Source: a virus. Taken from it: DNA of 33,384 bases. The position numbers and the translations under genes are program-made. The notes below the pieces were generated by a model. It was not told the origin of the DNA, did no database searches, and was given only the letters and a program-made list of their open reading frames with translations. Within the stretch, counting starts at the first letter, position 1. Every line of letters begins with the position of its first letter. The DNA is taken from positions 1 to 33,384 of IMG/VR virus record IMGVR_UViG_3300010160_000016. The stretch is one strand, 5' to 3'. Positions 301 through 4,444 of the stretch are shown here, one piece after another.

Positions 301-686
301 GCTACGTTCAAGCAAAACAGAAACACGAATCCCAAACCGAAGACAACCACAACGACCTGCAATGCACGGTTTTTGAATGCCCGAATCGGTGGTCGGTGGA
401 TAAGGGCAGAAAATTGTGTAGCGCACACGCATGGTCAGAACCGCACGAATGGGCGAAAATTACCCAAGGCCTGTACTCTGCCGCCATCGTCAAAATTAAA
501 CGCAACCAAGACCCGATTAGACCCCTTACTGAGCAAGAAAAAAGGGAGGCAATCCAGCGCATCCACAACTTGCCGCCAGTTGACCCCAAAAAGTGGGCTT
601 ACAAACTTAAAAACCGTGAAGAAAGTGGCGAGCATTTAAGCCAGCTACAGAAAAAGGCATGGCGTGAAGCCTTGAGGGTGGCATGA
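297..686 (+). CDS. Small zinc-binding-type phage protein, function unknown
   Basis: 129 residues. Cys23, Cys28, Cys41 and His44 sit in a CxxxxC...CSAH arrangement that looks like a single zinc site, with the segment CPNRWSVDKGRKLC familiar from phage hypothetical proteins next to DUF1376 genes. The C-terminal half is charged and helical. The start overlaps the DUF1376 stop (ATGA) and the stop overlaps the methyltransferase start (ATGA), so it belongs to the rightward early operon. A role in replication or as an adaptor is plausible from context only. Confidence 0.8.
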   Translation: MSYVQAKQKHESQTEDNHNDLQCTVFECPNRWSVDKGRKLCSAHAWSEPHEWAKITQGLYSAAIVKIKRNQDPIRPLTEQEKREAIQRIHNLPPVDPKKWAYKLKNREESGEHLSQLQKKAWREALRVA

Positions 687-1666
687 ATGAGTTGGCTCTT
701 TTCGCAGGCGCTGGTGGAGGAATACTTGGGGGACATCTGCTTGGATGGCGAACAGTCTGCGCCGTTGAGTGGGAGCAATATCCAGCAAGCGTACTGTGTG
801 CCCGACAAAATGACGGTCTTCTCCCGCCTTTCCCGATTTGGGATGACGTACAAACCTTTGACGGAAAGCCGTGGCGAGGAATTGTTGACGTTGTTTCGGG
901 AGGATTTCCATGCCAGGACATTAGTGCCGCAGGAAAAGGTGCAGGAATTGACGGAGAACGAAGCGGAATGTGGGGAGAAATGGCGCGCATCATTCACGAA
1001 GTACGACCCCGATACGTCTTTGTGGAAAACTCACCAATGCTCACTTCTAGGGGACTTGGACGAGTTCTTGGAGACTTGGCCACAATGGGGTTTGATGCGA
1101 GATGGGGAGTGTTGGGAGCAGCGGACGTTGGAGCAAACCATCAGAGGGACAGAATATGGATTGTCGGAAAAGCTACCAACCCCTTGCGCTGGAGATCACA
1201 AGAGCAAACCAACGAGCACATCTTGGAAAGCCAAGGGAGCAATCAACTACAGTTTAGCGAACCCAGAGATTCAGGCGAAATGGGCTACTCCAACCACTAT
1301 GGACAGACTGCCTCCAAAATCGGCTCAAGCGTTATTAAAGGAAGCGACATTTGCAAGACCTGGCAGGAGCAAGCCAGCAAATCTACGCGATCAAGTGAGC
1401 AATATGAAGAATTGGCCAACACCTGTGAAATCAGACCATGCAGCAAGGAGGCCAAGCAAAGGGTGGCAGGGGAATTCAGATTTGCCGAGTGTGGTGTGGA
1501 CAGAAACTGGTGGCAAACAGAACCCCGAAATGTCCCCCGCATCACTCAACGCAACTTGGGTAGAGTGGCTGATGGGATGGCCGCTAGGGTGGACAGACTT
1601 AAAGCCATTGGCAACGGACAAGTGCCACTCTGTGCAGCAACAGCTTGGAGAATCTTAAGCCAATGA
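683..1666 (+). CDS. dcm: Phage DNA cytosine-5 methyltransferase
   Basis: 327 residues with the C5-MTase motif set in order: motif I FAGAGG (7-12), the catalytic PCQDIS loop (76-81, nucleophile Cys77), ENS (115-117), QRDRIW (154-159) and the closing RLKAIGNGQVP (305-315, motif X-like). The target-recognition region falls between about 165 and 295. It should transfer a methyl group from SAM to cytosine in DNA, probably protecting phage DNA from host restriction; the target site cannot be read from sequence. The ATG overlaps the previous stop (ATGA) and lies 4 bases after GAGGG (674-678). Nearly its whole length also encodes the frame at 687-1658, which restricts how either protein can change. 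Confidence 0.93.
   Translation: MNELALFAGAGGGILGGHLLGWRTVCAVEWEQYPASVLCARQNDGLLPPFPIWDDVQTFDGKPWRGIVDVVSGGFPCQDISAAGKGAGIDGERSGMWGEMARIIHEVRPRYVFVENSPMLTSRGLGRVLGDLATMGFDARWGVLGAADVGANHQRDRIWIVGKATNPLRWRSQEQTNEHILESQGSNQLQFSEPRDSGEMGYSNHYGQTASKIGSSVIKGSDICKTWQEQASKSTRSSEQYEELANTCEIRPCSKEAKQRVAGEFRFAECGVDRNWWQTEPRNVPRITQRNLGRVADGMAARVDRLKAIGNGQVPLCAATAWRILSQ
687..1658 (+). CDS. Overprinted protein nested in the methyltransferase gene (PTP-repeat / WVEWLMGWP family)
   Basis: 323 codons, open in the next frame almost end to end with the methyltransferase. Signs that it is real: an ATG 8 bases from the same GAGGG that serves 683; no stop in 972 bases; three spaced copies of [LW]-[PA]-T-P-x3-D at residues 163-170, 199-206 and 243-250; and a distinctive aromatic segment WVEWLMGWPLGWTDL (291-305). 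From memory, proteins ending in WVEWLMGWP-x-GWT, with repeated PTP segments, are common unassigned phage and prophage proteins, which suggests a conserved dual-coding arrangement. Function is unknown. The alternative is that it is a passive open frame produced by methyltransferase codon bias; the repeated PTP motif argues against that. Confidence 0.6.
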   Translation: MSWLFSQALVEEYLGDICLDGEQSAPLSGSNIQQAYCVPDKMTVFSRLSRFGMTYKPLTESRGEELLTLFREDFHARTLVPQEKVQELTENEAECGEKWRASFTKYDPDTSLWKTHQCSLLGDLDEFLETWPQWGLMRDGECWEQRTLEQTIRGTEYGLSEKLPTPCAGDHKSKPTSTSWKAKGAINYSLANPEIQAKWATPTTMDRLPPKSAQALLKEATFARPGRSKPANLRDQVSNMKNWPTPVKSDHAARRPSKGWQGNSDLPSVVWTETGGKQNPEMSPASLNATWVEWLMGWPLGWTDLKPLATDKCHSVQQQLGES

Positions 1667-3389: not shown

Positions 3390-3767
3390 ATGGCTTACGA
3401 AAAAGACCCAAACCAAAAAGACGTAGCTGACTTCATCAGCACATTGCTGCACTCAGGAACAATTACGCATTTCATGCACTTGGCAACCGATTCATTTGCC
3501 GTGCATATGGCATTGGGCGCGTTTTATAAGGAAATCATTGAGCGAACTGATGATTTTGCCGAAGCCTACGCAGGCTGTTACGAAAAAATCAAAACATTTC
3601 CCGAAAACTTCCACAATGCCAAAGACCCCGTGCGTTACTTGGAAAGCCTAAAGGATTACGTTGAGAAAAACCGCAAGGCCATGCCCAAAGAATCCGAACT
3701 GCAGAACATCATTGACGAAATAGCCGCACTAATTGACAGCACGTTATACAAACTGACCCTTAAATGA
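3390..3767 (+). CDS. Dps/ferritin-like protein (DUF5856 type)
   Basis: 125 residues, all helical. The stretch from His27 to Gly62 (HFMHLATDSFAVHMALGAFY, then EIIERTDDFAEAY) mirrors the first helices of Dps and ferritin proteins, with His30, His39, Glu51, Asp54/55 and Glu58 placed like ferroxidase ligands. Phage proteins of this kind fall in DUF5856. The strong AAAGGG (3379-3384) precedes the ATG, directly after the terminator. Iron or DNA binding is inference; it could have lost metal binding and serve as a structural or inhibitory helical protein. Confidence 0.75.
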   Translation: MAYEKDPNQKDVADFISTLLHSGTITHFMHLATDSFAVHMALGAFYKEIIERTDDFAEAYAGCYEKIKTFPENFHNAKDPVRYLESLKDYVEKNRKAMPKESELQNIIDEIAALIDSTLYKLTLK

Positions 3768-4444
3768 TTCGGATATTTGCAGGCTACGACCCAAGAGAGG
3801 CCGTAGGCTTCCATGTGTTTTGCCAATCCCTGATAGAGCGCACATCAGAGCCTGTAGCCATTACACCCTTTTACGGAAGCCAAAGGGACGGTACAAACGC
3901 ATTCATCTATCAGCGTTTCCTGGTGCCTTACTTCACAAACTTCAAAGGCAAAGCTATCTTCATGGATGCAAGTGATATGTTAATGCTTGCTAACATTAAA
4001 GACCTGAATGACCTGTTCGACCCCACAAAAGCCGTGCAGGTCGTCAAGCACAATTACGTGACCAAACACCCCAAAAAGTACATAGGGACAGCTATGGAGG
4101 CCGCCAACAGAAACTACCCTAGAAAGAATTGGTCAAGCCTAATCCTATGGAATTGCGCCAACCCAATGAACAAAGTGTTGACACCTGAATATGTAAACGC
4201 AAACGATGGCACATTTCTGCACCGATTCGGTTGGCTTACCGATACGCAAATCGGTGAACTACCGAAAGAATGGAACGTATTGGTAGGGGAAGAACAAAAC
4301 CCTAACGCTAAGATAGCCCACTACACCTTAGGCATTCCTGAGTTCGACCACTACAATAATTGCGACTTCAGCAAGCAATGGTTCAACACCAAGAATAGGA
4401 TGCTTAACGGCTTAATTAAAATGCGGGAGACGGTTGATGGCTGA
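3764..4444 (+). CDS. Glycosyltransferase-like protein (GT-A fold, GT8-like)
   Basis: 226 residues. It begins with a short beta strand (MIRIFAGYDPREAVGFHV), as in phage GT8-like enzymes that start with I-F-x-G-Y/F-D. The FMDASDMLM segment (66-74) is a DxD-type metal and nucleotide-sugar site (D68-A-S-D71). The end contains a conserved IAHYTLGIPEF motif. It should transfer a sugar from a nucleotide sugar; the acceptor is unknown (phage DNA, capsid or host envelope). The start overlaps the Dps-like gene by ATGA. Together with 14269-17059 it suggests a phage investing in glycan chemistry. Confidence 0.75.
   Translation: MIRIFAGYDPREAVGFHVFCQSLIERTSEPVAITPFYGSQRDGTNAFIYQRFLVPYFTNFKGKAIFMDASDMLMLANIKDLNDLFDPTKAVQVVKHNYVTKHPKKYIGTAMEAANRNYPRKNWSSLILWNCANPMNKVLTPEYVNANDGTFLHRFGWLTDTQIGELPKEWNVLVGEEQNPNAKIAHYTLGIPEFDHYNNCDFSKQWFNTKNRMLNGLIKMRETVDG

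Follow-up and report, generated by a model that had tools for sequence, protein, structure and literature searches.

The window analysed here, the whole stretch of 33,384 nucleotides, comes from a phage whose genome has genes for a terminase, a portal protein, an amidase and tail fibres, and at 3390-3767 it encodes a protein matching phrog_858, a starvation-inducible (Dps-like) regulator. On its plus strand two open reading frames share almost the same bases. One of them, which we call alpha, runs from an ATG at 683 to 1666 (327 aa) and is the catalytic subunit of a C5-methyltransferase with motifs I-VIII and X. The other, beta, lies in the +1 frame at 687-1658 (323 aa, ATG start), and we propose that it is a target-recognition/motif IX subunit. 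The same-strand overlap is near-complete, 972 of 984 nt, and both reading frames were found where a first-pass annotation of the sequence had placed them. So was the GAGGG that it had assigned to both starts: this Shine-Dalgarno-like element, at 674-678 on the plus strand, is 4 nt from the ATG at 683 and 8 nt from the ATG at 687. The beta start codon (687-689, plus strand) is contained in codons 2-3 of alpha, within AATGAR, and an upstream ORF (297-686) ends in the frame of beta with a TGA at 684-686, plus strand, that overlaps the alpha ATG (ATGA) and abuts the beta ATG (TGAATG).

The beta ATG is found at alpha position +4 in 161 of 161 loci, and likewise in 126 of 126 aligned sequences, 125 of which have AATGAR at alpha codons 2-3. 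Asparagine codons inside alpha are mainly AAC (991 AAC against 597 AAT), in contrast to the fixed AAT at the start, and where the beta ATG is fixed the alpha start itself varies across the relatives between ATG, GTG, TTG or none there. A TGA or TAA immediately precedes the beta ATG in 117 of 133 relatives, and termination-reinitiation may couple the upstream ORF to the start of beta.

Alpha has a C5 cytosine DNA methyltransferase domain (PF00145, E=6.3e-32) and matches phrog_363 with E=9e-67. In its translation PCQ of motif IV is found at residues 76-78, ENS, a variant of the usual ENV of motif VI, at 115-117, QRDR at 154-157 and GNG at 310-312. A recognisable motif IX is absent from the alpha translation, and the chain does not combine motif IX and target recognition with the catalytic motifs. 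The first-pass annotation had credited the methyltransferase with all catalytic motifs, which is right for I-VIII and X but not for IX, since this motif sits in the other frame.

Beta belongs to phrog_1008 (E=2.3e-28, residues 60-306). The three [LW][PA]TPxxxD units and the WVEWLMGWP-type segment that had been described for it can all be read in its translation, on the plus strand: LPTPCAGD at 1173-1196 (residues 163-170), WATPTTMD at 1281-1304 (residues 199-206), WPTPVKSD at 1413-1436 (residues 243-250), and the motif-IX-like segment LNATWVEWLMGWPLGWT at 1545-1595 (residues 287-303). Among 120 relatives P244, T245 and P246 of the third unit are almost invariant, and E293, W294, L295, M296 and W298 of the motif-IX-like segment are invariant; in a profile alignment this segment aligns to LNAAFAEWMM..P of single-chain methyltransferases. 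Searches of Pfam, NCBIfam and PDB with the beta sequence gave no convincing match, and the structure predicted for beta alone was poor (pLDDT 55, pTM 0.23) and was not taken to a fold search. Residues 1-120 of beta overlie alpha motifs I-V, and a counterpart to them was looked for in the betas of actinophages and in fusions, where none was found. A profile comparison with the actinophage betas gave E=7e-11, confined to the SxxETxP..GxMxxG region, and is not our main evidence.

Relatives were gathered in two ways, by beta, which is biased towards an open beta frame, and by alpha, where beta is not selected, and openness was counted in 71 distinct genes picked by the alpha frame only. The +1 frame was free of stops in 69 of these. 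Stops in the 687 frame of homologues had been named by the first-pass annotation as the result that would speak against a second gene, and the frame was instead open essentially to the end in 70 of the 71; the two genes with stops were L108, with a single internal +1 stop, and L100, with stops in the last 15 codons only. The expected number of stops per gene is about 5.8 when synonymous codons are shuffled and 8.7 when codons are resampled from the usage of flanking genes, while the +2 frame has a mean of 18.6. When the window gene alone was shuffled among its own synonymous codons the mean was 5.7 stops, with a probability of 0.00035 for none. The +1 frame is open far beyond chance.

Selection in both frames was estimated with our own OLGenie-like script from 61 disjoint pairs, which are not phylogenetically independent, using the Jukes-Cantor correction. 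The count gave dNN 0.073, dNS 0.166, dSN 0.269 and dSS 2.48, the last from few sites that are near saturation. Over the same pairs alpha has an overall dN/dS of 0.27, and the per-frame check that had been suggested for the 687 frame revealed purifying selection there too, beta having a dNN/dNS of 0.44 (0.39-0.50) and a dSN/dSS of 0.11. As a control, the +2 frame gave 1.17 and 0.96 for the same two ratios, and evolution simulated under constraint on alpha only gave beta ratios of 0.83 and 1.15, with 3.7 stops. The constraint on the two frames follows the domains. Alpha residues 1-180 with motifs I-VIII (683-1222, plus strand) are strongly constrained, with an alpha dN/dS of 0.10-0.32 by segment. 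The linker of residues 181-299 (1223-1579, plus strand), which corresponds to the TPxxxD region of beta, is near neutral in alpha (0.86-0.96) and strongly constrained in beta (0.29-0.33), and in residues 300-327 with motif X, AIGNGQVP (1580-1663, plus strand), the alpha dN/dS is 0.12. Beta residues 60-120 are also constrained, with a dSN/dSS of 0.13 against 1.11 simulated for residues 1-120. At 75-80% identity the third positions of alpha are little more divergent than the first (0.298 vs 0.231), and divergence at its 4-fold silent sites is 0.039 in residues 180-300, compared with about 0.22 near both alpha ends; in residues 180-300 a silent site of alpha is at the same time the second position of a beta codon, which keeps it from changing. 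Both frames are thus under purifying selection, in complementary segments divided by domain. That the second frame is a real gene, so that there are two genes in one stretch as had been claimed, is strongly supported by the openness, by the selection and by the conserved beta ATG.

In annotated actinophages the same two families occur in other gene arrangements. In Gordonia phage Sanjuju gp4, prophi_GD43-6 gp22 and McProf gp6 they form single-chain ORFs with the order motifs I-VIII, LLPTPxxxD repeats, LNxxFxEWMM..P (motif IX) and motif X, and these proteins match phrog_363 and, in their C-terminal part and in frame, phrog_1008. Sanjuju gp4 and McProf gp6 are thus like the window in combining motifs I-VIII (phrog_363) with TPxxxD and motif IX (phrog_1008), and unlike it in having one ORF in one frame, with no overlap. 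In Ovechkin the families lie side by side, gp69 being alpha (phrog_363) and gp70 beta (phrog_1008) with 82 bases between them, KBurrousTX gp79 and gp80 are neighbouring alpha and beta genes with a 17-base overlap, and LoneWolf gp85/84, Mundrea gp78/77, Peaches gp77/76 and Andrew gp43/44 have partial +1 overlaps. Profile to profile, beta residues 197-310 align with the part of the single-chain enzymes that reaches from the repeats to motif IX (E=2e-8), and this match is not a shadow of the conservation of alpha, because the single-chain enzymes use one frame. Single-chain methyltransferases have a homologue of beta as their C-terminal half. Weak +1-frame matches over the alpha motif VI-VIII region in single-chain phages were set aside as evidence, since conserved alpha codons alone suffice to produce them. 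An AlphaFold model of one single-chain relative (L286) has a pTM of 0.73; confidence is good for the catalytic and C-terminal parts and low for the repeat region, and the top PDB matches of the model are M.HhaI entries (E=6e-14). Both phrog_363 and phrog_1008 carry the label DNA methyltransferase, and the labels are silent on the origin of the two from different frames of one stretch and on their complementary domains.

A census of layouts by a motif rule covered 363 loci, a non-random sample with some contigs fetched twice, and in 214 of these the +1 overlap is full, with motif IX in beta and X in alpha. In a further 18 full overlaps a GN[GAS] motif is close to each end; 45 loci are partial overlaps with IX and X both in beta, and about 26 are single chains. 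The rule flagged 27 single chains, of which L043 was rejected as a false positive; L281 and L282, joined only via a frame switch close to a run of G, were not accepted as fusions and were omitted together with the uncertain L173, which left 23 in the tree. In this alpha tree, made by a quick method and midpoint rooted, the single chains all fall in one clade, mixed with partial overlaps, and the full overlaps fall outside it. It requires 12 layout changes against 38.9 with shuffled labels. A scan of genome contigs gave 144 relatives, of which 80 were kept, nearly all with the +1 layout, and these include Pseudomonas, Acinetobacter, Verrucomicrobia, Planctomycetota, Spirochaetia, Chloroflexi and Nitrospirota as well as contigs binned as Poseidoniaceae archaea. 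The overlapped layout, an economical one, is found again in hundreds of phages and prophages, usually without annotation; most inspected records annotate one frame only, and we found no description of overlapping alpha and beta genes in phages in the open-licence literature. Close to the window is, for instance, E. coli NZ_CP090448.1 (1254489-1255210), where alpha is annotated and the beta frame is not, and the record of Salmonella phage S9-5, another close relative, also annotates only alpha in the overlapped stretch. In Xanthomonas phage PhiXhv-28 both frames are annotated (1782-2774 and 1864-2769), each as a DNA methyltransferase.

The small domain of M.HhaI and M.HaeIII contains the variable region as well as motif IX, and in the model of M.SssI motifs I-VIII and X fall in the large domain, with IX and the TRD in the small one (PMC3404938). 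Artificial fragments of C5-methyltransferases are able to complement, and two natural two-polypeptide enzymes are M.AquI, with I-VIII on one chain and IX-X on the other, and M.EcoHK31I, with I-VIII and X on one chain and IX on the other (PMC3404938). From its published description M.EcoHK31I (YGGCCR) is like the window in having I-VIII and X on a large chain and IX on a second one. M.AquI (alpha/beta, CYCGRG) resembles it as a natural split into a catalytic and a small-domain chain, but its small chain has both IX and X, while the window has X in alpha (residues 310-312); the actinophages LoneWolf (gp85/84), Mundrea (gp78/77) and Peaches (gp77/76) are split as in M.AquI, both IX and X being part of beta. 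The beta gene of M.EcoHK31I also lies in another frame within its alpha, but it is shorter, 176 aa, and placed in the later part of alpha, unlike the beta of the window, which spans all of it. A second difference is that the TRD of M.EcoHK31I has been predicted on the large chain, whereas in the window the constrained TRD-like region is that of beta and the variable region of alpha drifts (for residues 180-300, dN/dS 0.86-0.96 in alpha and 0.29-0.33 in beta). This suggests that the target recognition region of M.EcoHK31I-like enzymes may be on the small chain.

Judged by its sequence, the stretch very probably encodes a two-subunit phage C5-methyltransferase in the style of M.EcoHK31I and M.AquI, with the subunits on nearly the same ~970 bases. 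The two frames split at the boundary between large and small domain, and split enzymes exist in nature, and we therefore propose a mechanism of co-translation and assembly. Alpha in frame 0 would be the large catalytic domain, in which a free linker separates motif X from the AdoMet and catalytic motifs I-VIII, and beta in the +1 frame the small domain, with a TPxxxD target-recognition-type region and motif IX as a candidate TRD. Ribosomes would start at either ATG 683 or ATG 687, one GAGGG serving both, and initiation is probably aided when the upstream gene terminates at the TGA that lies between the starts. Made together, alpha and beta would assemble into one enzyme that methylates the phage DNA, most likely to escape host restriction. 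We infer the translation of beta in vivo, its complex with alpha, target recognition by beta and the anti-restriction role of the enzyme from these features.

A different reading takes beta as a genuine protein that has nothing to do with methylation, for example an anti-restriction protein or a regulator, and that has been overprinted on the methyltransferase. The N-terminal part of about 120 residues, missing from the actinophage betas, and the lack of a Pfam or PDB homologue in the searches would fit such a protein, but about 26 loci have the beta family joined in frame to alpha, Ovechkin and KBurrousTX have it next to alpha as a gene of its own, and alpha itself has neither motif IX nor a constrained variable region, so we consider this improbable. 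The first-pass annotation had left a methyltransferase partner, an anti-restriction protein and a protein acting elsewhere as roles for beta; the last two have no support, and partner is the role we favour, because the beta family is the C-terminal half of, or adjoins, C5-methyltransferases of other phages.

Even less probable is a single polypeptide produced by a programmed frameshift from frame 0 to +1, and back again for motif X. In phages with partial overlaps the single-chain order I-X would indeed be restored by a +1 shift close to where alpha ends, but beta has its own universally kept ATG, usually just after an in-frame stop, its N-terminal part over motifs I-V is constrained (dSN/dSS 0.13), Ovechkin gp69 and gp70 do not overlap, and the group of the window would require two shifts. 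An untranslated +1 frame, open through accident or composition, is hardly credible, in view of the null for openness, the +2-frame control, the alpha-only simulation, the conservation of the start, and the stand-alone and fused homologues of beta.

Returning to the two-subunit enzyme, this kind of two-polypeptide C5-methyltransferase is already known, and our results suggest that it is far more widespread than the characterised examples imply. Hundreds of phage contigs, and prophage-like contigs from several phyla, keep a near-complete overlap with domain-resolved selection. We lean, if only narrowly, towards a more general hypothesis: in a large group of phages and prophages from multiple phyla the normal C5-methyltransferase gene would be a near-complete dual-frame gene, with the catalytic and the sequence-reading domain on the same bases, the constraint being divided so that the reading domain diversifies under the unconstrained alpha linker and the catalytic domain stays fixed, and with the beta N-terminus over motifs I-V as an extra, undescribed domain. 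The annotation of many "phage methyltransferases" omits their probable DNA-reading half, and cloning, specificity prediction and anti-restriction studies that build on one-frame annotation would therefore be misled. The single-chain, side-by-side, partly and fully overlapped forms of one enzyme are also a natural series for gene fission, fusion and overprinting.

Some loci depart from these layouts. Seven (L018, L019, L021, L203, L222, L235 and L251) have a nonsense codon in alpha with beta still open, in most of them in the linker and in L018 before the ENS motif, which may be due to sequencing error, decay or real truncation; L108 is the reverse case, with the stop in the beta frame. In three bacterial contigs (L216, L226 and L253) alpha ends after motif VIII and the beta ORF goes on alone, with motif X falling in the beta frame in L226. 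The uncertain L173, Rhodococcus phage ReT1v-1 (1888-3087), has PCQ and motifs IX and X in one frame and the TPxxxD repeats in +1; its record contains a frameshift or, alternatively, its layout is mixed in an unusual way. In both L042 and L049 the overlapped gene is broken beyond about locus position 3800, where a third-frame ORF that resembles an HNH endonuclease separates the motif IX region from motif X and interrupts the two frames together. Downstream of it the motif X region resumes in L049, and the insertion is possibly a homing intron.
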